Shown here: positions 1-57,477 of the stretch, in pieces | Layout: every line of letters begins with the position of its first letter | Numbering within the stretch: position 1 is the stretch's first letter | Origin: Neobacillus massiliamazoniensis | GTDB lineage: Bacteria > Bacillota > Bacilli > Bacillales > Cytobacillaceae | Length of the DNA: 64,000 nt | Assembly (NCBI RefSeq): GCF_001048695.1 | Contig: NZ_CVRB01000006.1 | Coordinates: forward strand, 1 to 64,000 | Direction: 5' to 3' | Notes under the pieces: model-generated | Databases searched by the model: none | Told to the model about the DNA's origin: nothing | What the model saw: the letters and a program-made list of their open reading frames with translations, nothing else | Made by a program: the position numbers and the translations under genes

Positions 1-334
1 GATGTTCGACTATAAACTTTGAATCATTCTTCGTTTTAATTCCAAAAGATTGTATAGCCGAATCTTTAAATCCAAAGGTTTCATTTAAAAATTTAAATTG
101 AGAAGAACGCTGTGTTTTAAACTTCTTAGTTTTAGGGAGTTGAACTGTTTTTCGGTAGAGGGTAGTGTGTTGAAGGCGGTGAAGTCGTTTTATCCCTTCT
201 CCTAAACAAGCATTATACAATTGCCTTGCACAATTGGATAGCTTCAGAAGATGTTTTACTTGTTTAGGAAGGGTTTTTAAGCGAATCGTAGCGGTAAAAG
301 TAGGGGTGGATTCTCGTTTTTCTTCTTCTGACAT
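1..334 (-). CDS. tnpB: IS200/IS605-type TnpB, N-terminal part (runs off window)
   Basis: RNA-guided nuclease/accessory protein of an IS200/IS605-family element; only the first ~111 codons are in the window. The ATG follows a good ribosome binding site (AGGAGTATAAAAGGAT-ATG). The N-terminus has the TnpB pattern: a basic TIRLKTLP segment, then ARQLYNACLGE, which closely parallels ARMVYNSCLGE of the complete TnpB at 12.3-13.8 kb. It lies 6 bp downstream of the tnpA stop, the usual tnpA-tnpB order. The RuvC domain is off the left edge, so whether the gene is intact cannot be judged. Confidence 0.75.
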   Translation of the reverse strand, partial: MSEEEKRESTPTFTATIRLKTLPKQVKHLLKLSNCARQLYNACLGEGIKRLHRLQHTTLYRKTVQLPKTKKFKTQRSSQFKFLNETFGFKDSAIQSFGIKTKNDSKFIVEH

Positions 335-340
335 ATCCTT

Positions 341-745
341 TTATACTCCTTTCTGATTTTCAATATATTGTTTCACTACATCCAAAGTAGTTCCACCAAC
401 GGTGGAAACAAAATAACTGTTTGTCCAAAGAGAAGGAATACGGCTTTTTAGCCAAGGAAATTCTTTACGAAGAATACGGGAAGAAACCCCTTTTAAATGG
501 CGAACCAATTTGTTGATACCAAATTGAGGGTCTACCTCGACTAAAAGGTGAACATGGTCGGGCATGACTTCTAATTCGATAATCTCCGCTTTCACCCCAT
601 TGGCTACTTCAAAAAGAATAGATTTGAGTCTTTCATCTACTCCTTCCACTAAAACATTTCTCCGATACTTTGGACACCAAACTACATGATACTTGCAGGA
701 ATAAACAACATTGTTATTTGACTTATACTTCATATAACTTTTCAT
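341..745 (-). CDS. tnpA: IS200/IS605 family Y1 transposase TnpA
   Basis: Single-strand (HUH/Y1) transposase that cuts and rejoins the element ends. From the ATG at 745 the protein is 134 aa, normal for the family. The HUH motif is HVH (H64, H66) and the catalytic tyrosine is Y127 in KQYIENQ, with the helper Q131. The open frame extends 39 codons further upstream, but that part crosses the element-end hairpin and is unlike TnpA, so it was dropped; the ATG at 733 is an alternative start. It pairs with the partial tnpB to its left. Confidence 0.85.
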   Translation of the reverse strand: MKSYMKYKSNNNVVYSCKYHVVWCPKYRRNVLVEGVDERLKSILFEVANGVKAEIIELEVMPDHVHLLVEVDPQFGINKLVRHLKGVSSRILRKEFPWLKSRIPSLWTNSYFVSTVGGTTLDVVKQYIENQKGV

Positions 746-799
746 AGTTAAATTATACCATATAACTAAATCTAAACAACTACTTTTGATAAAAAATGC

Positions 800-832
800 C
801 CTATCCCTCCGCCTGAAGGCGGGGGCTTGCGG
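800..832 (-). repeat. IS200/IS605 end hairpin
   Basis: A GC-rich imperfect hairpin (CCTCCGCC, loop TGAA, GGCGGGGG) lies just upstream of tnpA. Such subterminal hairpins are what TnpA binds in this family. It marks the element boundary, which falls at or beside the stop codon of the DJ-1 protein gene. Confidence 0.6.
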
Positions 833-833
833 A

Positions 834-2207
834 CTAGTTTGAATTATGGTCAGCCGGTCCATGACTGGCTTTTTTTAATTGGACAATAAAGAAAGTTACC
901 AATAAAGCTAGTAATCCGATTAGAAGTACATTGTCGTAAGTTTCAAGAGGAAATGGTTTGCCCTCAAGATGGATACCATTCGCACGATATTCAAATCGTT
1001 TTACAGCATGCTTGGCAGTTAAAAGGTCTTCTTGTTTAGCTAAGTCTTCCAATGGTTCTTCGAATGCATATCTGTTTGGTGAATCACTATGAATAAGGAG
1101 GGTCTCTTTAGCATTACCCTTTTCACTCCAAAGTTTTACGTCGGCTGCAGCTAGGGATTTTGCGTTTCCACCTGGTATGATCATTTTATCCAATCTTGGA
1201 GCATTCGAAATTTGATGCCTAGCCACTATATTAAGGTGATTTTTTGTAGCAATGGGTGCATCCGAATTCGAAACGGTCAAGACTTTTGTCGTTCCTGTTG
1301 CTGCGTAAGTATCAAATATAGAAGATAATGCGATTTCATCCATGTCGTTATAAAGTAGTACACCTGCCTTTGTCTTATTCCACTTGAAGGAAAGATTCAA
1401 TAAAAAAGTTACAAAATATATGTCCTTTTGAATAGGTTCTACTTTTGGGTTTTGAACGAAGTGGTAAGAAGGATAACTGATTTCATTCGATATTTTTTTA
1501 GACATGGGTTCTCCGAGTTTTTGAGCTATCAAATATAGCACAGCATCGATACCTGCAGTTTGACCCGCTGAAGTTAAAATGTTTCCTTCATGGACATACC
1601 TCACATCTTCTTTCCAATGAGTGTCAGGATATTGCTTGCTTAGTAAAGAAATACCTTGCCAGTGTGTGGTGGCTGATTTTCCTTTTAATAACCCTGCATC
1701 GGCAAGATTCTCTGATCCACTGCAAATGCTCAAGATAGTGGTTTTACTGCTGGAATGTTGTTGAATCCATTCCCGAGTGGGTTGATATTTCTTTTCATCA
1801 TATATCGGCATGTAAGGAACCACGATAATGTCGGGACTTTTGCCTAATAATTTATCTAATTCTTTATAAGAGTAATGCGGTACTACATCCAGTCCGCCCG
1901 ATAACGTCTTTACGTTTTTGTCTGGGGCAACTGCAAATACATTAAAAGCGTTTGTTCTAGATAACAAATCATAGGGAATCATAAAATCAAATACCTCTGT
2001 GTCTACATTCGCTAATAGAACTGCTACTGTAGGTTTATTAGGATCATACTTTGGTGGTTTAACACCATGTAGAGAAGGAACGGGCTCATGGCGGACATTC
2101 TTGAAAAAATCATTATCAGAACGAACAAATCCGAGGTAGCCCACCCCTCCGACAAACACGGCGAAAATCAATACATAAACAGCTAAACGTACTACTAACT
2201 TTTTCAT
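834..2207 (-). CDS. Membrane-anchored DJ-1/PfpI family protein with two DJ-1-like domains
   Basis: 457 aa. An N-terminal membrane helix (residues ~8-28) and a C-terminal one (~425-447) bracket two DJ-1/PfpI (GATase1-like) folds. The first (~58-235) has a nucleophile elbow with C162 in SICSGSE followed by a TTHW motif (H182), as in the GATase1 domain of AraC-type regulators. The second (~280-390, starting near AGVLLYNDMDE) lacks an obvious Cys elbow and looks degenerate. The start follows GGGGGAATATAAA. Function is unknown; these proteins are annotated as DJ-1/PfpI or ThiJ-like. The stop codon sits at the edge of the IS element, so the native C-terminus may have been altered by insertion. Confidence 0.75.
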   Translation of the reverse strand: MKKLVVRLAVYVLIFAVFVGGVGYLGFVRSDNDFFKNVRHEPVPSLHGVKPPKYDPNKPTVAVLLANVDTEVFDFMIPYDLLSRTNAFNVFAVAPDKNVKTLSGGLDVVPHYSYKELDKLLGKSPDIIVVPYMPIYDEKKYQPTREWIQQHSSSKTTILSICSGSENLADAGLLKGKSATTHWQGISLLSKQYPDTHWKEDVRYVHEGNILTSAGQTAGIDAVLYLIAQKLGEPMSKKISNEISYPSYHFVQNPKVEPIQKDIYFVTFLLNLSFKWNKTKAGVLLYNDMDEIALSSIFDTYAATGTTKVLTVSNSDAPIATKNHLNIVARHQISNAPRLDKMIIPGGNAKSLAAADVKLWSEKGNAKETLLIHSDSPNRYAFEEPLEDLAKQEDLLTAKHAVKRFEYRANGIHLEGKPFPLETYDNVLLIGLLALLVTFFIVQLKKASHGPADHNSN

Positions 2208-2863
2208 TTTATATTCCCCCTTAATTCGCCTTTCCAGATTTGAATGTTGTTATTCTTTAACGCGACAAGAATTTCCCGACTCCAATGAATAAATGTTTGA
2301 TACATTCTGAACAAAAATCATATTTTCCACTTTCCAAAATGTGGATATTTGGTTATTGACTACGCTTGTGAACTACTCTCACATTGTATTTAGTTTGAAC
2401 ATGATAAATACCGTACTCTTTTTGGGTATTACCGCAAAATCTCGTGGTACCCCCGCAGGGTATTTGTTTTTATCTTGATTCCATATTACCTTTTTTCTAA
2501 AGATTCATAATTGTGCCAAAGAACGATTTTTATATCAGACGTCAGACTTAGCTGGTTTCAGACCATAAAAAAAGACAGAGACTTAAATAGTCTCTGCCCA
2601 ATATATTGCCTTAAAAACCGATATCAAGTTATAAGAAATAGACCGTAACTTGAACAATAAATAATTACCTTGATTTTTGTGTCAAATATGAATTTAAAAG
2701 GGTGAGAATTTCCCCCTCCTGCTTCAACTGAACCGTTCGTATAAAAAAAGCTGCCATTGGCTACCATCCTATGTCCATTAGCTATTTATCAATTAAAGGT
2801 CTTACACTATAAGTATCAACGGTATTATTATATTTTTTAGATATTATTGTTTATTAAATAATA
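2208..2863. other. Intergenic stretch with one terminator
   Basis: 656 bp with no supported gene. It holds the upstream region of the DJ-1 gene, a terminator at 2568-2600, and a small GC-rich inverted repeat near 2452-2470 (TACCC...GGGTA followed by a T-rich run) that may be a weak plus-strand terminator. Nothing else was recognised. Confidence 0.5.
2566..2600 (-). terminator. Rho-independent terminator
   Basis: On the minus strand GCAGAGACT - ATTTA - AGTCTCTGTC is followed by seven Ts. It lies ~265 bp downstream of the Asp-box membrane protein gene and would insulate the DJ-1 gene from it. Confidence 0.75.
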
Positions 2864-4342
2864 CTAACTACTTTTAACCTCTTTCACATACTCCCATGTT
2901 TCCCCTTTATCTTTTGATTGATAAAGTGCACTACTATTACCATTATAATCTCCATCTGATCCTTGCCCAACTAACATATTAAATACTCCATCTTTCTCAT
3001 AAGGCATACCTGGAGAATCAAAAGGACTTATAGACTGTCCACTATCTAATTTTACTTCACGGGGTGTATAATTTACCTTTTTAAAAGATATGCCCCCATC
3101 ATCTGTACGATATAACTCGCCCTCAGTACCAGAAGGTCTGACTGCTACTAAAAATCCAAGTTTATCATTTAGAAAAGTTATTCCTGATGCACTACCAATT
3201 GTTCCATTGAATGGATCATTATTTATAACCTCCCATGTTTTACCCCCATCAATGGTCTTGCTTAATGAATAAAACGTACTTCCTAGTGCTTTATCAGTAA
3301 TATTTAGTTTATAACCAACTTCTTTTGATAGGTAAAACTGTTCCTTGCTATTCGTTAAATCTTGTTGCTTCTCTTTAGAACTCTTTTGATTTGGATTTGT
3401 ATTTGCTTTACTCCAATTTGGGTCACCTATTAAGTTATATCTAGCAGGTACTACCTCTTTCTCTTTTCCAGGGACAAATATAGATACAGTATATCCTATG
3501 ATTTCAGAAGTTGATTTTTCAAGATTATGCTCCTTACCATCCTCATTAATATTAATAATTCCCTCTGTATTGTATCCCCAATTTCTTTTTCCATAATAAA
3601 CTAATCCATACTTACTTTCATTCCACTTACTAACTGTTTGCTTAACTGGAATAGCATTAACCGTTTTAATTAGAGGTTCTACTAGTTTATCATCATCATA
3701 ATCTGGATTTGCATATCCATTTCGTATTATTGTAATATCTTGTGACTTTTTCTTATCATAAGCTATTAAATAAGTTTCCTCTTTCCCGTGAGCATTTTTC
3801 CCATAAACAAATGTATCAAATGCTGTAATTATTCCATCTGAATTAAATGTAAGGTCAAAATCACTTGCCATATATAATTTCTTTGGCAAAGGATGTTCCT
3901 TATTTATATCTTCAAAAATACCTTCTACTCCAAATTCATATATGTTGTTATGTTCAAATTTAACTGATCTTTCATTTTTTAATCTTTCTATAAACCATGC
4001 GAGTTTGCCGCCATAATTTGTTGCACTTTTATAAATCTCTACTCCATAAAATGATGTTATTGCAACAATAATTAAAATAGAAATATATTTCCATGCCTTT
4101 AAATTAGGTAATTTTTTAAATTCACGTTCTTTATCTGTTATAATTCTAATTGTAGTGAATGTAATGATAGATATTAAAAATACTATACAAAATAATAAAA
4201 TATAAATATTATTATTCATTCTTCCATACATACATAATGAAGCTAACTCATAACAAAAAATCCAGTATCCAATTATTAATATTGGATTTGTTAATAATGA
4301 TATAAGTATCCTTTTTATAATTCCCCCAAATATGTAAATCAC
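2864..4342 (-). CDS. Membrane protein with C-terminal Asp-box (BNR) repeats
   Basis: Up to 492 aa. Three hydrophobic helices in the first ~110 residues (about 12-35, 44-65, 85-102) are followed by a long polar extracytoplasmic region. The C-terminal third contains three Asp-box-like motifs (IDGGKTW, DDGGISF, KDKGETW), the signature of BNR/sortilin-type beta-propeller blades. Enzymatic sialidase activity is not implied. The start is uncertain: GTG at 4342 begins the frame, but no convincing ribosome binding site precedes it. The gene stands alone, followed by a terminator. Function unknown. Confidence 0.65.
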   Translation of the reverse strand: MIYIFGGIIKRILISLLTNPILIIGYWIFCYELASLCMYGRMNNNIYILLFCIVFLISIITFTTIRIITDKEREFKKLPNLKAWKYISILIIVAITSFYGVEIYKSATNYGGKLAWFIERLKNERSVKFEHNNIYEFGVEGIFEDINKEHPLPKKLYMASDFDLTFNSDGIITAFDTFVYGKNAHGKEETYLIAYDKKKSQDITIIRNGYANPDYDDDKLVEPLIKTVNAIPVKQTVSKWNESKYGLVYYGKRNWGYNTEGIININEDGKEHNLEKSTSEIIGYTVSIFVPGKEKEVVPARYNLIGDPNWSKANTNPNQKSSKEKQQDLTNSKEQFYLSKEVGYKLNITDKALGSTFYSLSKTIDGGKTWEVINNDPFNGTIGSASGITFLNDKLGFLVAVRPSGTEGELYRTDDGGISFKKVNYTPREVKLDSGQSISPFDSPGMPYEKDGVFNMLVGQGSDGDYNGNSSALYQSKDKGETWEYVKEVKSS

Positions 4343-25807: not shown

Positions 25808-27752
25808 GTCGAGTAGAAGGGAGCCTTTTTACCTTGCGGTAAATTGAACTCCACCCCCCTCACAGAACCGTGCTTGCACTATTAATGCACACGGCTCCTC
25901 CTAATTATCATTTACAGAATGTAGCTAATTTCTTTTCTTAAATCATATATATTCACTTTTATTCTTGGTGAAGGTAGTGGATATTTATTAAGAAAGAGTC
26001 TGAATTTATCCCATGTAAAGGATTTCCTTTGACTTCTTCGGTTAAGCCATTTAAACAGTAACCTTTCTATTTTGTCTTTGAAGTTGTTTACATTTTGGGT
26101 ATTATCAGTGACGCAATAATAGTTGTAATAACCTATCAGTGATCGTTTAAATCGATCCATAATAATATGAATATCTTTATTTCGATTACTCTTCAGCCAT
26201 TCTTTCGTTTCTTTTAGTTTGCCTTGGACTTTCTTCCTGCTTGATTTCCTTTTCACACGGAAGTTTCCTTGTTTGCTCTTCCCACAATAGTGCGTAAAAC
26301 CAAGGAAACCAAAGGTTGCTGGTTTATTTCTCCCCTGTAGATTTGTATTTCTCTCCGCAAACCTCCCGAAGGGAATGATTTTGGTCTTATCCTCAGCTAT
26401 TTCTAGGTTAAATTTCTTTAATCTTAACTTTAATGAATGGAAGAATTGCTCAGCTTCACTTTTATATTGAAAACAACAAACAAAATCATCCGCATACCTC
26501 ACTATGTATGCCTGTCCTTTGCACTGTTTCCTAACCCTTTTCTCAAACCATAGGTCGAGTACGTAATGGAGATATACATTGGCTAATATCGGAGATATTA
26601 CTCCACCTTGCGGTGTGCCATTGTCTGTCTTGTATTTCTTACCTTCCTCCATATACCCACCTTTTAGGAATCTACTAATTATTCTTAGTAGGTTTGGGTC
26701 AGCGATTCGAAGTTTTAAGAACTCCAACATCCATATGTGGTCAACGTTGTCGAAGAATCCTTTAATATCTACATCTACTACATAATTTACTGACCTCTTT
26801 TCAATATAGTGGTTCAGTATTTTCAAAGCATCGTGGCAGTTACGATTTGGGCGGAATCCAAAGGAACAGTCTAGAAAGTCATTTTCATAAATGGTATTTA
26901 GTATCTTTGTAATGCCTTTTTGAACAATTTTATCTTCATGTTCCGGTATTCCCAATGGTCTTTTCTTGTTGGAATTGAGCTTTGGAATATACATTCTCCT
27001 TACTGGAACAGGACGATAGCTTTTGCTTTTAAGCCTACTTACTAAATCCTCTATGTTTTCTTCTAAACTTTCACCGTATTGCTCTTTAGTTGTACCGTTA
27101 ATCCCAGTTGCCTTCTTATTGGGTAGTTCAAGATGACATTGAACTAATGCTTCCTTATTTAATAGATGTGCAAGAGATGTAAATTTCATTTTAGGTTCAG
27201 ATTTTGCTAATTCTGCTATCCTTAGTAGTTTTGTTTCCATTTATAATTCCTACCTCTGTGTGTAGTAAATGTGTCCCTAGTAAGGGTGATAACTGGTAGC
27301 TAGCCTTTCCTCCATCGGCATTACCCAACTTCATTGGTACTACGCTGCTATCCGACTCCCTACACGGCATTTGGTTTCCTTGCTTATTATCGCTTGTAGA
27401 CCATACTCTTCTAAAAAAAAAGAAAAGACCGGTAGGGTCTCCCGAGTTGCCGTATCATATCAATGTATAACGTGCCAAGGTCTCTGACTCCAGAGAGGTT
27501 TTACCCTTCTTGCCTCTAACGAAAGATAAAATGTAGCTTTCTGCTGTGCGTAACGCATCAGCCCTCTCGGTTTACTAACATTATGGAGCTCAATCCCTTT
27601 AACCATTTGGCTTTCGGCCCGCCACCTAACTGTCTACGCTTAAAGACTAAAGTTACCTTTAGCCCTCCAAGACTCGCTACGAGCGAATGGCTAGTTCTTA
27701 CTCGACGGGAATCCCACCCGCTATATGATACGACCTAAGCTCGGCCGCACAC
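25808..27752 (-). mobile_element. Group II intron with reverse transcriptase
   Basis: The 5' end on the minus strand is GTGTGCGGCC (27752 downward) and the 3' end is CTACTCGAC (ending at 25808), giving ~1.95 kb. Domain V is visible at 25865-25897 (GAGCCGTGTG ... AAGCACGGTTC), followed by a domain VI stem. The maturase ORF lies between domain I-III sequence and domain V, the normal location in domain IV. Ends were assigned from consensus. Confidence 0.85.
25912..27240 (-). CDS. ltrA: Group II intron reverse transcriptase/maturase
   Basis: 442 aa. Reverse transcriptase fingers-palm with IPKLNSNKKRPLGIP, DIKGFFDNVDH and the catalytic YADD (residues 249-252), then a maturase X domain with FLGFTHY and IGYYNYYC. 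The protein ends at SYIL without a C-terminal HNH endonuclease, so insertion probably uses a different strand-priming route, as in endonuclease-less lineages. It promotes splicing and retrohoming of its host intron. The frame is intact. Confidence 0.95.
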   Translation of the reverse strand: METKLLRIAELAKSEPKMKFTSLAHLLNKEALVQCHLELPNKKATGINGTTKEQYGESLEENIEDLVSRLKSKSYRPVPVRRMYIPKLNSNKKRPLGIPEHEDKIVQKGITKILNTIYENDFLDCSFGFRPNRNCHDALKILNHYIEKRSVNYVVDVDIKGFFDNVDHIWMLEFLKLRIADPNLLRIISRFLKGGYMEEGKKYKTDNGTPQGGVISPILANVYLHYVLDLWFEKRVRKQCKGQAYIVRYADDFVCCFQYKSEAEQFFHSLKLRLKKFNLEIAEDKTKIIPFGRFAERNTNLQGRNKPATFGFLGFTHYCGKSKQGNFRVKRKSSRKKVQGKLKETKEWLKSNRNKDIHIIMDRFKRSLIGYYNYYCVTDNTQNVNNFKDKIERLLFKWLNRRSQRKSFTWDKFRLFLNKYPLPSPRIKVNIYDLRKEISYIL

Positions 27753-48066: not shown

Positions 48067-48933
48067 TTAAACATGGCTTGGTAAAGAATCACGGTATTCT
48101 TTAGCTCCTTCAAAAAAATGATGGATCGCTTGTTCATCACCAGCCTGCAAAACAGCAGTCAATTTACGAATTTCGTTCATCCAATCCTCGATTAAATCCA
48201 GTAAATTATGGCGATTATCCATAACGATATCACTCCAAATGCTTGGATTACTTGAGGCGATTCTTGTTATATCACGAAATCCTCCTGCTGCCATTTGGCG
48301 AATAAGCGGCTCTCTGATCGCATGTTTTTTTGCTTGATTCACCAATACTCCAGCAATTAAATGTGGAAGATGACTAATCATTCCTACAATGTAGTCATGC
48401 TCATCTTTGTCGAGAATATGGAGACGCGCATTGGTGCCACTTAACCAACTCTTTAATTCACTTATTCTTTTATTACTGATTTCGGGAGCAGGAGTAAGAA
48501 TATAATACGCATTGTCAAATAAATGTAAGTCGGCATTTTCTACTCCGGTTTTATGCGAGCCCGCTATAGGGTGCCCGCCAATAAAGGTTACTTTTCCATT
48601 AAACACCTCATTGGCAGCCTCCATAATCTCCCCTTTTGTACTACCTGTATCTGTAATAATGACATTGTCTTTTAATGTCATGCTTGATAATTGTTTCATT
48701 ATTTTTCTCAGTTCTACTACAGGTGTCGATAAAATAATTAAGTCGGCGAGTTCTGCTCCCTGTTGTAAAGAATCCACTTTTTCGTCAATAACGTTGAGTT
48801 CAATTGCTTTTTCTATCTCATGTTGATGAACATCCAAACCATAAATTTTTGTATTTGGATGCTGGTTTTTTATTGTAAGGGCAAGCGATCCACCGATTAA
48901 TCCTAATCCTACAATAAATACATTTCCTTTCAT
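48067..48933 (-). CDS. tyrA: Prephenate dehydrogenase TyrA without ACT domain
   Basis: 288 aa from the ATG at 48933 (GACGGAGG upstream). NAD-binding GLGLIGGSLA, then TDTGSTKGEI and GGHPIAGSHKTG (substrate loop), then a helical dimer domain. It makes 4-hydroxyphenylpyruvate, the tyrosine precursor. The protein stops at YRDSLPSHV, where B. subtilis TyrA (~371 aa) continues into an ACT domain for tyrosine sensing. The next gene starts 46 bp later, so the domain is cleanly absent. Confidence 0.92.
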   Translation of the reverse strand: MKGNVFIVGLGLIGGSLALTIKNQHPNTKIYGLDVHQHEIEKAIELNVIDEKVDSLQQGAELADLIILSTPVVELRKIMKQLSSMTLKDNVIITDTGSTKGEIMEAANEVFNGKVTFIGGHPIAGSHKTGVENADLHLFDNAYYILTPAPEISNKRISELKSWLSGTNARLHILDKDEHDYIVGMISHLPHLIAGVLVNQAKKHAIREPLIRQMAAGGFRDITRIASSNPSIWSDIVMDNRHNLLDLIEDWMNEIRKLTAVLQAGDEQAIHHFFEGAKEYRDSLPSHV

Positions 48934-48960
48934 CATTAGACCTCCGTCATTACTTTCCAT

Positions 48961-50046
48961 TCATTGAGCGTTCTTTATAAATTCCTTTATTGCCTCTCTG
49001 ACTCTTTCATTTTGTTCCGCTAAACCAATCGTAATCCTCACACATAACGGAAACCCTAATTGTTTGCCTGATCGTACGATAAGCCCCTGTTCCAATAAAA
49101 ACTTTGAGACCACGTCTCCATCACAATTGAAATCAATTAATACAAAGTTCCCTTCTGAAGGATAAATTTTCATCCCATTGTCTAGACAAAAAGCATAATA
49201 TTTCTCCCGCTCAGCCACATTTTTTTGAAAGCATTCCTTTACAAATTCTTGATCACTTATTGCAGCGGCAGCGGCCATTTGGCCAAGGGCATTTGTATTA
49301 AATGGCGGACGAGCCGCTTCTAATTTTTGAATAATGTCGACAGATGAAATCCCATATCCCACTCGTAAACTAGCGAGCCCATAAATTTTCGAAAACGTTC
49401 TTGTAATCATTACGTTAGGGAAATCCTCAAGCAATTCGATCGTGTTACCTGGCTGTTCCACATATTCAAAATAAGCCTCATCTAGTACTACAAACACATC
49501 GTTTGGAACTTTCTTCAAAAATGTCCAAAGTTCATCGATAGCGGTATAAGTCCCTGTTGGATTATTAGGGTTGCATACCCATACCACCGTTGTATTCCTA
49601 TCGATGGCTAAAAGCATTCTGTCTAAATCATGTCTCCCATCAACTAACGGGATTTCTCGTACCTCCCCACCCTCGATCACGGCATTATGTTTATACTGTG
49701 AAAAAGTAGGGGTAGCCATTACCGTATTTTTCCCAGGTTGTATTAAAGCCCTCGAAATAATTTGGATTAATTCATCCGTTCCATTTGTAAAAATTAATTG
49801 ATTCGGATCAACCTCTAAAATTGTGGCGGTCTCCGCTCTTAATTTGCTAGCTTTTCCATCTGGGTAAATATTTAATGAACCCCCAAAATCTTTTAATGCT
49901 TTATCTACTTTTAATGAATGACCATATGGATTCTCATTTGAAGCTAATTTGATAATCGAGTTTCGTGTATCATGAGTCTTCACTTCAGCAATTGATTTAC
50001 CGGGTTGATATGCATGTAGTTGATGCATTTGTTCTTTCCATTTCAT
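48961..50046 (-). CDS. hisC: Histidinol-phosphate/aromatic aminotransferase HisC
   Basis: 361 aa. Fold-type I aminotransferase: SNENPYGHS near residue 38, NPNNPTGTY, LDEAYFEY and the PLP lysine in TFSKIYGLASLRVGYG. In Bacillus, HisC serves both histidine synthesis and transamination of phenyl/hydroxyphenylpyruvate, explaining its place between aroB and tyrA. 7 bp downstream of aroB. Confidence 0.95.
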   Translation of the reverse strand: MKWKEQMHQLHAYQPGKSIAEVKTHDTRNSIIKLASNENPYGHSLKVDKALKDFGGSLNIYPDGKASKLRAETATILEVDPNQLIFTNGTDELIQIISRALIQPGKNTVMATPTFSQYKHNAVIEGGEVREIPLVDGRHDLDRMLLAIDRNTTVVWVCNPNNPTGTYTAIDELWTFLKKVPNDVFVVLDEAYFEYVEQPGNTIELLEDFPNVMITRTFSKIYGLASLRVGYGISSVDIIQKLEAARPPFNTNALGQMAAAAAISDQEFVKECFQKNVAEREKYYAFCLDNGMKIYPSEGNFVLIDFNCDGDVVSKFLLEQGLIVRSGKQLGFPLCVRITIGLAEQNERVREAIKEFIKNAQ

Positions 50047-50053
50047 TTTGACT

Positions 50054-51130
50054 TCACTCCTTACTCTTATCTTGTAAAACTAAAAAAGTTTTTCGGAGTA
50101 ACTCCTGATCAACTTTTTGCATAACAGGTTTTCCTAAATCCTGCAGTAAAACAAATACAGGTTCATTTCCAACAGATTTTTTATCTCGAACCATCCATTC
50201 CAGAATGGATTCAAATGGATAATTATTAGGAATTTTCCACTCATACCCCAATCCCTCAAGCCAACTGATAAAGCTTTCATAAGAGAAAGCAAACTGATAG
50301 ATTTGCTTACTTAGGTTCAAAGCATATACGATTCCAATCATGACAGCTTCACCGTGAGTTAATTCACCAAACCCGGCTGCAGCTTCCAAGGCATGGCCGA
50401 GTGTATGACCGAAATTTAAATAGGCGCGAATATATTTTTCCGTTTCATCCTTTTTCACAATATTTGCCTTGGTTTCAATGCCTTTTTTCAAAAATTTTTG
50501 TAAAGGAACTGCGGTTAGATCTTCGAGTGATTTTGTTTCATTCATCAATTCCTGTAAAAATAGTGGATCTGAAATTAAGGCATGCTTAATGATTTCCGCA
50601 AACCCACTTCTTTTTTCTCGAATTGATAATGTTGCTAAAAATTGAGTATCATAGATAACCAGTTCTGGCTGCTTAAAGGCGCCAACCATATTTTTTCCTA
50701 GTGGATGATTAATCCCTACCTTGCCCCCGACCGCACTGTCATGAGCCAAAATGGTGGTAGGAATCTGTATAAAGGCAATCCCTCTCATGTAAGTGGCTGC
50801 AACAAATCCTGCTAAATCACCAATGGCCCCGCCGCCAAAAGCTAAAACAACCGAATGACGATCCATCCCTTGTTTAATTCCAAATGAAATACAATCTTGA
50901 TATATCTCAAATGTTTTCGCCTTCTCACCATTGGGAGCTATATAAATATGGGTTTCTATATTAGGAAGATGGTTCTCAAGTGTGTCTAAATGTCGTTTCT
51001 TTAAATCAGTATTTGTGATGATCCATAGCTTTGAATAGTATTGTAAATCAACTGCAATTTTACTAAGGATTTCTCTACCTAAATAAACTGGGTAATTTTT
51101 AGATGTGGTCAAAACATTAATGACATCCAT
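50054..51130 (-). CDS. aroB: 3-dehydroquinate synthase
   Basis: 358 aa from the ATG at 51130 (AGGGGA upstream, 1 bp after the aroC stop). NAD-binding FGGGAIGDLAGFVAATYMRG, IQIPTTILAHDSAVGGKVGI and zinc ligand motif NFGHTLGHALE with HGEAVMIG. Converts DAHP to 3-dehydroquinate, the second step of the shikimate pathway. Coupled to aroC. Confidence 0.95.
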   Translation of the reverse strand: MDVINVLTTSKNYPVYLGREILSKIAVDLQYYSKLWIITNTDLKKRHLDTLENHLPNIETHIYIAPNGEKAKTFEIYQDCISFGIKQGMDRHSVVLAFGGGAIGDLAGFVAATYMRGIAFIQIPTTILAHDSAVGGKVGINHPLGKNMVGAFKQPELVIYDTQFLATLSIREKRSGFAEIIKHALISDPLFLQELMNETKSLEDLTAVPLQKFLKKGIETKANIVKKDETEKYIRAYLNFGHTLGHALEAAAGFGELTHGEAVMIGIVYALNLSKQIYQFAFSYESFISWLEGLGYEWKIPNNYPFESILEWMVRDKKSVGNEPVFVLLQDLGKPVMQKVDQELLRKTFLVLQDKSKE

Positions 51131-51131
51131 G

Positions 51132-52304
51132 TTAAAATCCCCTGGCATATAAATTGTGATCTTCAATGGATTGCTTCAATAACTCAAAACGATCATTACT
51201 AAATTGCTCCGTTATTGCAACGGCAAGCTCCCAAGCTACAACCGCTTCTGCCACGACACTTGCGGCTGGAACGGCACAGCTATCGGAACGTTCGATACTT
51301 GCTGAAAAGGACTCTTTTGTATCAATATCAACGCTTTTTAACGGTTTATATAAGGTTGGAATTGGTTTCATTACTCCTCTTACAACAATCGGCATACCTG
51401 TTGTCATTCCACCCTCAAAGCCTCCTAATCTATTCGTAGAACGAACATATCCTTTATTCTCATTCCAGATAATTTCATCATGCACTTCACTGCCCGGGAT
51501 TCTCGCCATCTCAAAGCCTAAGCCAAACTCTACACCCTTAAAGGCATTAATACTTAATATGGCTTGGGCAATTTTCGCATCCAGTTTCCGATCATATTGA
51601 ACATAGCTCCCTACACCAATCGGCATGCCTTCCACTATGACCTCCACAATACCGCCAATTGAATCTCCATTTGCTTTCGCTTGATCAATAGCCTCCATCA
51701 TTTGTTTTTCCACTTTTTGATCAAAGCAGCGAACAGGAGAATCTTCGGTTTTTTGCTGTAATTCTTGAATATTTTCATATTGTGGTGGATTTGCTCTTAC
51801 TCCGCCAATTTCTAAAACATGTCCGGCAACTTCAATTCCAAGCAGTGAAAGGAGTTTTTTAGCAACCGCTCCTGCTGCGACCCTAACCGTTGTCTCTCGT
51901 GCCGAGGAACGCTCTAGAACATTTCTCATATCGCGATGCCCATACTTAATCCCACCGACTAAATCAGCATGCCCTGGCCTTGGTCTCGTTACCTTTCGCT
52001 TCACTTCTTCTTGATTTTCCAGATTCAAAGGCTCAATCCCCATGATTTTTGTCCAATGCTTCCAATCATTATTTTCGACGACAAGGGATAACGGTGATCC
52101 TAATGTAAAGCCATGGCGAACACCTCCAGTGATATTGACCATATCGGTTTCAATTTGCATCCTTCTTCCGCGTCCATAGCCTTTTTGACGACGAGCGAGT
52201 TCATGATTAATATCCTCTACAGTTAAAGGCATCCCCGCGGGTAGCCCCTCGATAATCGTCGTCAGCTGCGGACCATGTGATTCACCGGCTGTAATGTGTC
52301 TCAT
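51132..52304 (-). CDS. aroC: Chorismate synthase
   Basis: 390 aa from the ATG at 52304, nine bases from AAAGGAGG; the frame's first ATG touches the site. GESHGPQL start, [17 protein letters not shown] and RSSARET motifs bind FMN and EPSP. Makes chorismate. Named aroF in B. subtilis. 60 bp downstream of the DAHP synthase gene. Confidence 0.95.
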
Positions 52305-52373
52305 TGTTGACATCCTCCTTTGACCCCTGCTGAACTGCAGGGATCGACTATTCTATTTTTTATAAAAATGCTC

Positions 52374-53450
52374 TTACGCTAATTTTTCTTGTAACGTTTT
52401 TAATTCCTGGATAAACTCATTAAACTGCGGAATATCCATTTGCTGTGCGGCATCTGATAATGCTACCGCTGGGTCTGGATGTACTTCTGCCATAATCGCA
52501 TCAGCACCAATGGCCATCGCCGCTTTCGCTGTTGGAAGTAGTAAATCTCGTCTTCCAGTTGAATGTGTCACATCTACCACCACTGGGAGATGGGTTTCTT
52601 TTTTCAAAATAGGCACGGCCGAAATATCCAACGTATTTCTTGTCGCTTTTTCATAAGTTCGAATCCCACGCTCACATAAAATGATTTGATTATTTCCTTG
52701 TGAAATGATGTACTCCGCTGCATGGATAAACTCTTCAATCGTAGCGGAAAGTCCTCGTTTTAATAAGATTGGTTTATTCACTTTACCAACTGTTTTAAGT
52801 AAATCGAAGTTTTGCATATTGCGAGCCCCGACTTGAATAACATCTACGTAGTCTAGTGCAAGCTCTACATCATTAGGTGAAACAATTTCACTAATAATCG
52901 ACATCCCCAATTCATTTCCGACTTCTCTTAAAATCTTCAGGCCTTCTACCCCTAAGCCTTGGAAGTCATAAGGTGATGTTCGTGGTTTAAATGCCCCACC
53001 ACGCATGAGGTTCAAGCCTTGATTCTTCATAGCTACGGCAACCTCTCTTACTTGTTCATAGCTTTCAACCGCACATGGTCCCATAATAAATCTTTGTTTT
53101 CCATCACCGATCGTTTCACCATTGATGTCGACGATGGTATTTTCAGGTTGCGCCTTCCGCGACACTAGCAATACTTTCCGACTATCGTCATTTTGAAGCT
53201 CTAAGCTTGCTTTAAATATTTCTTTAAAAATATGTTGAATGGTTGATGTATTAAAGTGTCCGTGGTGATGCTTAATAATTAAATCAAGTGATTCTCGTTC
53301 ACGAACAGGATCAAAACGATTAACCCCTTGTTTTTTCTTTTCTTCTCCAATTTCTTGGACGACTTCAGCTCTTTCGTTTAATAAATGTAATATTTCTAAG
53401 TTAATCTCATCAATTTTGTTTCGTAATTGCGTTAATTTATTGGTTGTCAT
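52374..53450 (-). CDS. Bifunctional chorismate mutase/DAHP synthase (type I beta)
   Basis: 358 aa. Residues 1-90 are an AroQ-type chorismate mutase ([20 protein letters not shown]) that in these fusions also acts as the allosteric sensor for chorismate/prephenate. Residues ~110-358 are DAHP synthase with [25 protein letters not shown] and [11 protein letters not shown] metal/PEP motifs. It condenses PEP and erythrose-4-phosphate, the pathway entry. B. subtilis calls it aroA (older aroA(G)). First gene behind four T-box leaders; ribosome binding site CAGGAGGAAG. Confidence 0.95.
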
Positions 53451-53540
53451 ATTTCTTCCTCCTGAACATTTATAATTAAAATTCGCGAATTTTTTAAGTG
53501 AAAACTATGCGGGAACCCTAAGTATCAATTCTAAACAAGC

Positions 53541-53583: not shown

Positions 53584-53822
53584 AAAAGCCCCTACTGGTT
53601 TTCCAGTAGGGACGAATTGATTTCGCGGTACCACCCTAGTTGTGAACAGTCTTGTTCACCTCTCCATTTTGTTAACGATCATATGACCGTCTTTCCCTTC
53701 ACAAGAATATCTCCTTGCTACGAAAAAGAAGCTCCAGGATTGTAATTCATGTTGATCTTTGTACTGATTTGCACCACCATCAGCTCTCTTGAACAGGGAG
53801 ATCATCCACTACTTATTTCCTT
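53584..53822 (-). promoter_or_regulatory. T-box riboswitch 4 (gene-proximal), Tyr specifier
   Basis: On the minus strand: Stem I with the AGAGAGCTGATGGTGGTG distal bulge region, specifier UAC (53742-53744) in AATTACAATCC, antiterminator T-box AGGGTGGTACCGCG, and terminator CCCTACTGG-AAAA-CCAGTAGGG with T run. Most diverged of the four copies (for example ATATCTCCTTG instead of GACTCTTTG). Confidence 0.93.
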
Positions 53823-53857
53823 TCATTGCTTTGCATCTTATTAAATTTTGAATATAA

Positions 53858-54096
53858 AAAAGTCCCTACTGGTTTTCCAGTAGGGACGAATTGATTTCGC
53901 GGTACCACCCTAGTTGTGAACAGTCTTGTTCACCTCTCGATTTTGTTAACGATCGTATGACCGTCTTTCCCTTCACAAAGACGACTCTTTGCTACGAAAA
54001 AGAAGCTCCAGGATTGTAATTCATGTTGATCTTTGTACTGATTTGCACCACCATCAGCTCTCTTGAACAGGGAGATCATCCACTACTTATTTCCTT
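53858..54096 (-). promoter_or_regulatory. T-box riboswitch 3, Tyr specifier
   Basis: Same parts as its neighbours: specifier UAC at 54016-54018, AGGGTGGTACCGCG and a complete terminator. Terminators are spaced exactly 274 bp apart. Confidence 0.93.
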
Positions 54097-54131
54097 TCAT
54101 TGCTTTGCATCTTATTAAATTTTGAATATAA

Positions 54132-54370
54132 AAAAGTCCCTACTGGTTTTCCAGTAGGGACGAATTGATTTCGCGGTACCACCCTAGTTGTGAACAGTCT
54201 TGTTCACCTCTCGATTTTGTTAACGATCGTATGACCGTCTTTCCCTTCACAAAGACGACTCTTTGCTACGAAAAAGAAGCTCCAGGATTGTAATTCATGT
54301 TGATCTTTGTACTGATTTACACCACCATCAGCTCTCTTGAACAGGGAGATCATCCACTACTTGTTTCCTT
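54132..54370 (-). promoter_or_regulatory. T-box riboswitch 2, Tyr specifier
   Basis: Specifier UAC at 54290-54292. Shares TTTACACC in the distal loop with copy 1 (others have TTTGCACC), otherwise almost identical to copy 3. Confidence 0.93.
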
Positions 54371-54405
54371 TCATTGCTTTGCATCTTATTAATTTTTGAA
54401 TATAA

Positions 54406-54645
54406 AAAAGTCCCTACTGGTTTTCCAGTAGGGACGAATTGATTTCGCGGTACCACCCTAGTTGTGAACAGTCTTGTTCACCTCTCGATTTTGTTAACGA
54501 TCAATATGACCGTCTTTCCCTTCACAAAGACGACTCTTTGCTACGAAAAAGAAGCTCCAGGATTGTAATTCATGTTGATCTTTGTACTGATTTACACCAC
54601 CATCAGCTCTCTTGAACAGGGAGATCATCCACTACTCGTGTTCCT
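54406..54645 (-). promoter_or_regulatory. T-box riboswitch 1 (promoter-proximal), Tyr specifier
   Basis: Specifier UAC at 54565-54567. It has a one-base insertion (CAATATGACC) relative to copies 2 and 3, and its upstream edge loses the common TTTGCATCTTATTAA sequence, showing where the tandem array ends. Confidence 0.93.
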
Positions 54646-54678
54646 TTCAATGCCGAACATATAATTATTATTTTTCAT

Positions 54679-54708
54679 ATTATATATTTTTTAAAGTTGA
54701 TAAGTCAA
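54679..54708 (-). promoter_or_regulatory. Sigma-A promoter of the aromatic operon
   Basis: On the minus strand TTGACT, 18 bp, TATAAT, ending ~35 bp before Stem I of the first T-box. The only good promoter seen in front of the four leaders. Confidence 0.75.
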
Positions 54709-55048: not shown

Positions 55049-55966
55049 TCATCGTCCACTAAAAACTTTAACTGAGGAGTGCGGATAAGACCTCAAATTT
55101 GGAAGAGAAATGATTAAGGTTCCAAGGATAATCGTCAATGCACCTATACCAGACAACCACGAAAAAGTTTCATGATAAAAAACGACTCCCAGCACCATAG
55201 CAAGAATCGGTGAAACAAAAAGCCAGGTTGAAGGGAAAACAGGGTTTGTCTTGGAGACAAGCCAGTAATAAAGACTATGTCCGCCCATTGATCCAACTAC
55301 TATCAAATAAAGGGACGATCCGATTGCTGCCGGACTCACTAAAGTAGCCATTTGGAAATCCTCCGTCACAAAAGACAAAATCATTAACAGGATCCCGCCA
55401 TGCATCATTTGAACGGCATTTAAAGCAATTGGGGAAATTTTATCAAACTGATTGATTACCCTTTTCGAATAAATCGTTCCTGATGCATAAAACACCTCAC
55501 CTGCCATAATTAAGACACAGCCACCCAGCACCAAGGAATTAACAAGAAAAGAAAAGCTCGGTAAAATGAGGAGAAAGACCCCCGCTATTCCTACGAAACA
55601 TCCAATAAAGGAACTCGAATTTGCTTTCGTCTTTAAAATAAAAGCTTGAATCAGCAGTATCATCATCGGTCCGGTAGCTGATAAGACGGCTGCTGTTCCT
55701 GACGGGACAAACTGCTCTGCCCAATATAATGTGGCAAAAGTACCAAAAGTCAGCCCAATACCCGTCAATAGCATCTCCATACGAAAAAACATCCTTAGTG
55801 TAGTCTTTCTTTTTAACATCATAATGGCAAATACAATCAAACCTGCTAAAAAAAAGCGAAGACCTGCTGAGAAAAAAGGCGGCACGCCTGCATCAATCCC
55901 TATTTTTATCGCAAGAAAGGTCGTACTAAAAATCATACACATAAACAAATAACCAAACAATACCAT
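55049..55966 (-). CDS. EamA-family (DMT) transporter
   Basis: 305 aa from the ATG at 55966 (AAAGGAGGAATTTAC upstream). Ten membrane helices in two EamA repeats; the first repeat ends near FVPSGTAAVLSATGPMMILL and the second near WLFVSPILAMVLGVVFYHE. Probable metabolite exporter. Divergent from a MocR-type regulator 113 bp away, which likely controls it. Confidence 0.9.
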   Translation of the reverse strand: MVLFGYLFMCMIFSTTFLAIKIGIDAGVPPFFSAGLRFFLAGLIVFAIMMLKRKTTLRMFFRMEMLLTGIGLTFGTFATLYWAEQFVPSGTAAVLSATGPMMILLIQAFILKTKANSSSFIGCFVGIAGVFLLILPSFSFLVNSLVLGGCVLIMAGEVFYASGTIYSKRVINQFDKISPIALNAVQMMHGGILLMILSFVTEDFQMATLVSPAAIGSSLYLIVVGSMGGHSLYYWLVSKTNPVFPSTWLFVSPILAMVLGVVFYHETFSWLSGIGALTIILGTLIISLPNLRSYPHSSVKVFSGR

Positions 55967-56079
55967 GTAAATTCCTCCTTTTTGCTTAATTATAGGTGAA
56001 GGATAATAGAACAGATGAAAATCATTAGACCAGATTAAGGAGAAACGTGCTAAAATCAAAGGGATTGGGAGGGAAAAGA

Positions 56080-57477
56080 ATGAATGGAGATTACTTATTT
56101 AAACAAGTATACGATTATGTTTTACACCGAATCGAACTCAATGAATGGAATGAGAATGAAAAGCTCCCTTCAATTAGAAATTTAGCTAGTGAGATGAAGG
56201 TTCATCGCTTAACCGTATTAAAGGCCTACCAGCTTCTTAGACAGGAAAATAGAGTCTATGTCAAAGATAAATCCGGCTATTATGTCCAATCCCGTGAAAT
56301 TAATAAATTAGAAAGCCTGGTAAATCCGATCGTTTCTGCATATGTGCAAAAAAATCATTTATCGGAAATCCATCAGGTACCTGTTTCCTATCAATTTTCG
56401 CAGGCATTAATTGACCCTAATCTTTTGCCGAATCGCTTCATATCGGACTATGTAAAAAAAGTTTTTGATCTCTATCCAAAGGTTCTCTCCACCTACTCCA
56501 CCGTTCAAGGCGATCATGAACTGCGTCAAACACTTTCTGACTATTTTAATCAGCATTATAAAACGATTACACATCCAGATCATCTATTAATTACGTCCGG
56601 TTCCCAGCAAGCCATTCATCTGATTGCCCAGGCATTTGTAAAATCAAGAGACACTATCCTTTTGGAGCGGCCGAGCTATAGTTCTGCCATTGATATTTTT
56701 CGAGCACAAGGAGCCAATATTGTAACCGTCGATATCCATCCGTACGGATATGATTTAGAGCAGATTGAATTCATCATGAAAAAACACAAGCCTCGTCTGT
56801 TTTATCTGAATCCAACCTTCCATAATCCAACCGGATACACTGTCCCATTGGTCCAAAGAAAGCAATTAGTCCAGTTAGCCCAGCACTACCGTTGTCTGTT
56901 AATAGAAGACGATGCTTACTACGACATCTTTTTTGATCAGGAGCCTCCACCGCCCATGTATACCTATGATACTTCCGGCATGGTGATTTATATCAAAAGC
57001 TTTTGCAAATATGTATCACCAGGGTTGCGAATAGCCGTCATGATGAACGGTCAGTCTTCCGTGGTGAAATCTTTGCTAGCAGTAAAATCATTGGCCGATA
57101 ATGGATCACCCCTTTTAAATCAAAAGATTTTCCTGCATTACTTTTCATCTTCAAGGCTGCAACAACATGTTGAGAAACTGCGAATTGCGCTGCAAATACG
57201 AAAGGAAATCATGGAGGAAGAGCTGTCCGTAACAGATTGGCAATGGACCAGCCCAAATGGTGGCTTGAATTTATGGGTACTACTCCCAAGCCGCCTGTCA
57301 ACAGAAGACTTATTGGTCAAGAGTCTGGAGCAATCAATTTCCTTTGTTCCCGGCCAAATATGTGACCCCTTAAAGGAGCCATCCTCATGGCTTCGGTTAA
57401 GCTATTCCTATGCCAATGAAAAACAAATCTCGGACGGACTTAGGAAGTTTATTAATTTAGTACGCTCTACTCAATAA
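56080..57477 (+). CDS. MocR-family regulator (GntR HTH + aminotransferase domain)
   Basis: 465 aa from the ATG at 56080 (GGGAGG upstream). Residues ~1-75 are a GntR winged HTH (LPSIRNLASEMKVHRLTVLK); ~115-465 are a fold-type I aminotransferase-like domain with NPTFHNPTGY, EDDAYYD and a PLP lysine in SFCKYVSPGLR. Such proteins sense PLP or amino-compounds. Divergent from the EamA transporter, a common MocR arrangement. Confidence 0.92.
   Translation: MNGDYLFKQVYDYVLHRIELNEWNENEKLPSIRNLASEMKVHRLTVLKAYQLLRQENRVYVKDKSGYYVQSREINKLESLVNPIVSAYVQKNHLSEIHQVPVSYQFSQALIDPNLLPNRFISDYVKKVFDLYPKVLSTYSTVQGDHELRQTLSDYFNQHYKTITHPDHLLITSGSQQAIHLIAQAFVKSRDTILLERPSYSSAIDIFRAQGANIVTVDIHPYGYDLEQIEFIMKKHKPRLFYLNPTFHNPTGYTVPLVQRKQLVQLAQHYRCLLIEDDAYYDIFFDQEPPPPMYTYDTSGMVIYIKSFCKYVSPGLRIAVMMNGQSSVVKSLLAVKSLADNGSPLLNQKIFLHYFSSSRLQQHVEKLRIALQIRKEIMEEELSVTDWQWTSPNGGLNLWVLLPSRLSTEDLLVKSLEQSISFVPGQICDPLKEPSSWLRLSYSYANEKQISDGLRKFINLVRSTQ

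Follow-up and report, generated by a model that had tools for sequence, protein, structure and literature searches.

Four near-identical tyrosine T-box units in series ahead of a tyrosine operon in Neobacillus massiliamazoniensis

The 64,000-nucleotide stretch of the Neobacillus massiliamazoniensis genome analysed here (the window) carries on its minus strand a leader of about 1.2 kb, composed of four consecutive T-box units and followed by six genes of aromatic amino acid synthesis. The elements of the leader, in the order of transcription, are as follows.

54679..54708, minus strand: promoter-like site TTGACT-18-TATAAT, 11 of 12 consensus positions
54427..54659, minus strand: T-box unit U1, promoter-proximal, specifier UAC at 54565-54567, 137.1 bits
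54410..54435, minus strand: terminator of U1, 11 bp stem and U tract, -20.1 kcal/mol
54153..54383, minus strand: T-box unit U2, specifier UAC at 54290-54292, 5' spacer of U4 type and body mainly of U1 type, 144.4 bits
54136..54161, minus strand: terminator of U2, from terminator scan and folding
53879..54109, minus strand: T-box unit U3, with its UAC specifier at 54016-54018, an exact chimera of U4 and U2, 144.0 bits
53862..53887, minus strand: terminator of U3, from terminator scan and folding
53605..53835, minus strand: T-box unit U4, the closest to the genes, with its UAC specifier at 53742-53744 and a Stem III region that diverges, 143.9 bits
53588..53613, minus strand: terminator of U4, with U-G in place of one U-A pair, -19.5 kcal/mol

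An Rfam covariance scan of the window aligned all four units with the full T-box model (RF00230, model positions 1-219) at 137.1-144.4 bits (E-values 2.1e-30 to 2.8e-32), against a gathering cut-off of 93 bits. The four complete units that an initial annotation had read from the letters, with no mention of the strand, are thus borne out, and all elements lie on the minus strand. A motif search found GAAUUACA, with the tyrosine codon UAC at the specifier position, in each of the four, as that annotation had also held; specifiers differing between units were considered and rejected on this result. The T-box cores start at 54458, 54184, 53910 and 53636, a spacing of exactly 274, and the positions of the terminators, likewise 274 apart, confirm the earlier claim of one terminator per unit at this exact interval. 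Tandem Repeats Finder reports a period of 274 with 3.9 copies and 98% matches, and the unit bodies are pairwise 94-99% identical (0.938 to 0.992). The array is not a chance repeat. A gene within it was ruled out, there being no ORF of 60 aa or more inside 53584-54708; no tRNA gene occurs in the 64-kb window.

The antiterminators are identical in all units (-5.9 kcal/mol), against terminators of -20.1 kcal/mol in three units and -19.5 kcal/mol in the last. The segment GUCCCU is common to the antiterminator and the terminator of every unit, and the two structures are mutually exclusive. The T-box bulge reads UGGU; its match to the discriminator of tRNA-Tyr depends on that base being A73, as we assume. 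When whole units are folded without constraints, the minimum-energy structures contain the terminator, lack the canonical Stem I and vary between units, so that the unit structure rests on the covariance model. Terminator-like sites in the region number 10, versus a mean of 1.0 in shuffles. Promoter-like sites (7) are hardly enriched over shuffles (mean 4.8, sd 1.7), and the promoter call therefore depends on strength and position: a single strong promoter-like site is present, it lies upstream of U1, and it is the TTGACT-18-TATAAT promoter proposed earlier. At least two complete units behind one promoter, the arrangement that defines a tandem riboswitch, are accordingly found here. A weak promoter-like sequence (TGGAAA-17-TATATT, 9 of 12 positions) follows terminators 1, 2 and 3; it recurs because the spacer itself repeats, and is probably due to chance.

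Downstream of the leader the following features were identified.

53458..53463, minus strand: AGGAGG, likely ribosome-binding site of aroG, read from the sequence
52374..53450, minus strand: aroG, bifunctional DAHP synthase/chorismate mutase, NF009239 above cut-off
51132..52313, minus strand: aroC, chorismate synthase, TIGR00033 above and top model NF009113 below the respective cut-off
50054..51166, minus strand: aroB, 3-dehydroquinate synthase, by family models
48961..50046, minus strand: hisC-like aminotransferase, by family models
48067..48960, minus strand: tyrA, prephenate dehydrogenase, best model NF005107 at 384.4 bits, below its cut-off of 414 bits
46725..48056, minus strand: aroA, EPSP synthase, by family models

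The general aroC models are passed by aroC, and the product of the hisC-like gene would probably serve as the aromatic aminotransferase. On gene content, aroG-aroC-aroB-hisC-tyrA-aroA is a chorismate-to-tyrosine operon, consistent with the UAC specifier. On its other side the leader adjoins a divergent pair (55049-57477) of an EamA-type exporter-like gene on the minus strand and a MocR/PdxR-like regulator gene on the plus strand. Elsewhere in the window a group II intron occupies 25808-27714 on the minus strand, with RF02005 and RF00029 matches around a reverse transcriptase/maturase ORF (25912-27240).

The genome possesses a second copy of the pathway, as checked for aroG and aroC among the six operon genes. 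The second aroG, on another contig (C4), is 72% identical to the array-linked one, and no T-box core was found in the 16 kb around it; the second aroC is 75% identical to its array-linked counterpart. Matches to aroG (E-value of 1e-60 or better) are present in 59 of 60 congeners at 71-74% identity, except for a partial match of 78% in G072, an assembly with 13% contamination in which aroC is in two pieces. Two congeners have a second aroG match (73% and 59%). All 60 congeners match aroC, at 72-76% apart from the two G072 pieces.

In an aroG protein tree, built from sequences longer than 300 aa and without 29 distant loci (L082-L110), the array-linked gene lies outside a group of 29 congeners and the genome's own second copy. 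Together with the genes of Priestia koreensis, Priestia megaterium, a genome labelled Rossellomorea vietnamensis and the genome G056, it forms a group of five (support 0.926). The tree represents 29 of the 60 congeners by a fetched locus, and its relatives come from 80 of 587 matches listed. The highest pairwise identity among the matches listed (79%) is with Ectobacillus antri, whose contig holds only 227 nt upstream of aroG. The operon was probably acquired horizontally; alternatively, it may be an old duplicate that was retained. All four tree neighbours have two T-box cores upstream of aroG, in the same leader position as the array. Of 111 aroG loci examined, 8 had one or two cores in the 1400 nt upstream, and none had more. 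Three of the four double leaders have UAC in both units, the second unit of P. koreensis being without a motif-resolved specifier. Their two units are 65-79% identical to each other, in contrast to the 94-99% of the four in N. massiliamazoniensis.

The history of the array was read from an alignment of the four 274-base blocks. U3 matches U4 at columns 9, 40 and 84. Wherever U2 and U4 differ between columns 141 and 267, it follows U2 instead, and it has no private base. It is an exact chimera, with its 5' part from U4 and its 3' part from U2. U2 in turn joins a U4-type 5' spacer to a mainly U1-type body. Its origin is less clean than that of U3, because at columns 9 and 40 it agrees with U1 and not with U4, and at column 175 it shares with U3 a base absent from U1 and U4. 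Most likely the row expanded recently from two to four units through successive unequal crossovers: a first would have turned U1-U4 into U1-U2-U4, and a second, between U4 of one copy and U2 of another, U1-U2-U4 into U1-U2-U3-U4. Gene conversion could produce the same chimeric pattern. The recent expansion suggested by the initial annotation is thus upheld by the high identity and the exact chimera, although its opposition of function to an expansion without selective value does not stand, since both can hold. Paired units of other genomes mostly group with their own array partner, so that units cannot be matched across genomes, and we infer the two-unit ancestor. The phenylalanine-hydroxylase arrays of congeners (two or three units) are 87-95% identical within an array, and their units group partly by position across genomes. 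As these groupings suggest, homogenisation of T-box arrays is common.

The genome yielded 36 T-box matches, 32 of them above the cut-off, a count that may be low since 150 of 267 candidates were scored. Tandem sets account for 12 of the 36: one of four, two triples and one pair. The first triple (L174, contig C3:122312-123091) precedes a threonyl-tRNA synthetase gene (thrS), with units 273-274 bp apart and 91-92% identical, two of the three scoring above the Rfam cut-off. The second (L173, contig C5:22563-23477) precedes an MFS transporter gene, with units 328 bp apart and 92-96% identical; its specifier resembles GUC (Val) by eye, and the first two units in the order of transcription have degenerate cores (GAGTGGTATCGTG). 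The pair (L172, contig C1:1488265-1488744) is a tyrosine T-box pair (GAAAUACA), 89% identical, before an NhaC-type antiporter gene. Congeners carry tyrosine T-boxes before an aromatic amino acid hydroxylase gene, as triples in G005, G070 and G072 (L176, L189 and L190) and as pairs in G025 and G030. No hydroxylase-linked T-box match was obtained in the N. massiliamazoniensis genome with the tyrosine unit as query.

A pattern of three exact T-box cores at a spacing of 253-283 was matched in 4 of 61 genomes of the genus, 9 of 397 genomes from the order and 3 of 398 from the class, N. massiliamazoniensis being included each time, and overall in 12 of 815 distinct genomes. A reversed control pattern gave no match among those listed. 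In the other 11 genomes the arrays precede a threonyl-tRNA synthetase gene in seven cases, all assigned by eye; a phenylalanine hydroxylase gene in three, one assigned by family model and two by eye; and in one case an amino acid permease gene, assigned by visual comparison with a scanned relative. None of 19 genomes in the family of Ectobacillus (G815) matched the pattern; the two sets probably overlap by one genome or more, as G057 and G817 share coordinates. A search of 8 genomes of the family of G056, with one unit as DNA query, gave no array of three or more. Only N. massiliamazoniensis among the 815 produces two overlapping matches, that is, four units, and in this sense the array is as exceptional as first proposed; the statement holds for the pattern alone, which missed both other triples of the same genome (thrS and MFS transporter), and fours elsewhere are possible.

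Tandem T-boxes themselves are well documented. In the Bacillus cereus group the tyrosine operon and phenylalanine hydroxylase are under T-box control (Wels 2008, PMC2494555). There the T-box lies upstream of the tyrosine operon, as in our array, but the passage concerned describes one T-box, whereas the array has four. The same source gives two or three adjacent T-boxes for thrZ and trpE, and counts chorismate mutase (5 cases) among the genes whose T-boxes lie 300-480 nt upstream, a listing that may point to pairs. In its part on contiguous T-boxes, a 2025 survey of 5,418 genomes (PMC12452182) reports up to three, triples being exceptional for trp and artQ-glnQ-artP, with a figure of 13% of tandem cases for thrS. 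These triples resemble the array in placing complete units in series before one gene or operon; they differ in that, in the parts of the two papers that treat them, the reports stop at three and concern threonine, tryptophan and transport genes (PMC2494555, PMC12452182), while the array has four units and concerns tyrosine. A triple-tandem c-di-GMP-I riboswitch of Bacillus thuringiensis likewise consists of complete riboswitches in series, but with another ligand and three units. According to the data quoted from its study, it showed the lowest background (0.036) in its series and, at about 38, the largest fold change, and was called more digital than two or one, and maximal output starts dropping at three (PMC4759541). 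Triplets occur in several classes of riboswitch, and an arrangement of four glycine aptamers amounts to two double-aptamer riboswitches, as stated in the relevant part of a 2022 review (PMC9481103). How tandem T-boxes act is termed unknown in the passage of a 2020 review that mentions them (PMC7583486). No four-unit T-box leader was found among the literature matches listed, though an earlier mention in older work on tandem T-boxes is possible; the bacterial "four T-box" paper concerns four separate Staphylococcus aureus leaders.

We consider it highly probable that these are four serial, recently expanded tyrosine T-boxes which jointly gate an extra tyrosine operon, with low leakage and a raised threshold. 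RNA polymerase starting at the single promoter would encounter four conditional terminators. Each would be passed only with uncharged tRNA-Tyr, whose anticodon would pair with the UAC specifier and whose CCA end would pair with the T-box bulge, the bound tRNA stabilising the antiterminator; this is the textbook mechanism, as restated in PMC12452182. Transcription of aroG-aroC-aroB-hisC-tyrA-aroA would need all four terminators to be passed. An extra, costly tyrosine pathway would then leak very little and come on only once a large share of the tRNA-Tyr is uncharged, at the price of a somewhat reduced maximal output.

A series model was calculated for identical, independent units, with an assumed readthrough of 0.1 unbound and 0.8 bound and the total as the product. 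From one unit to four, the modelled floor falls from 0.1 to 0.0001, in keeping with the very low basal expression predicted earlier; the fold range rises from 8 to 4096, the half-point becomes 4.5-fold higher, and the ceiling drops from 0.8 to 0.41. The Hill slope is 1.26 for four units versus 1.00 for one. The steep response anticipated in the initial annotation therefore appears overstated, and under this model "tight lock", with the threshold raised, describes the array better than "steep switch". Such a lock would fit a duplicate, costly pathway.

The unit number of four comes from one assembly, of 5.6 Mb in 10 contigs. It contains two full 16S genes, few for such a genome, so that repeats have probably been collapsed; it may have been built from short reads. 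On contig C8 (60925-64214) a partial 16S match lies 1.4 kb beyond a full one, which may mark an rRNA region collapsed in assembly. An assembly artefact, with fewer units on the real chromosome, would be in line with the low 16S count, with the lack of private bases in U2 and U3, and with a longest exact repeat inside the array of 330 bp. We nevertheless regard it as very unlikely. Both U1 and U4 carry private bases. Removing U2 costs 42 of the k-mers present here at k = 21, and removing U3 costs 4 at k = 61 and 70 at k = 127, although none at k = 55. Were U3 present in a further exact copy, as a fifth unit, no new k-mer would arise up to k = 331, so that miscounting would rather hide units. 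Under-counting is thus more likely than over-counting, unless the joins used k of 55 or less.

If four units are real, two might have been enough, and the third and fourth could be recombination by-products on their way to being lost. To this neutral or transient expansion we would give somewhat less than an even chance. It agrees with the recency implied by near-identity and the exact chimera, with the absence of fours, by the pattern used, from the other 814 genomes scanned, and with a genome in which a third of the T-box matches (12/36) already stand in tandem sets. Against it, full T-box anatomy is kept in all four units, which recency alone could explain, and the partly position-grouped hydroxylase arrays of congeners indicate that extra units can persist longer. 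A division of labour, by which each unit would sense a different tRNA or the last unit alone would regulate, could appeal to the divergent Stem III region and slightly weaker terminator of U4; as specifier, T-box bulge and antiterminator are the same throughout, we give it even less credence than the artefact. It is scarcely conceivable that the true product is the short terminated leaders, acting as a sponge for tRNA-Tyr: the promoter-like site is strong and a long transcript would offer four tRNA sites, but immediately downstream lies a complete tyrosine operon, equipped with a good ribosome-binding site, and terminated leaders would mostly contain one unit.

The array is the four-unit form of tandem T-box control, an ordinary switch in an unusual number of units. 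It documents the growth of a riboswitch array, as it would occur via unequal crossing-over. Its four near-isogenic units provide a natural series in unit number, in which units may be removed singly with the sensor unchanged, and allow the claim of a "more digital" response to be tested against a plainer expectation, in which the floor falls and the threshold rises. The near-identical 274-bp units and the 330 bp exact internal repeat also suggest a copy-number dial, by which units would recombine often enough for unit number to vary within one population. We think this unlikely. In Lactococcus lactis a single T-box is reported to go with mixed populations (PMC7058034). Were such a dial to operate in N. 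massiliamazoniensis, the leak and the threshold of tyrosine synthesis would be heritably and reversibly tunable, possibly giving mixed populations.
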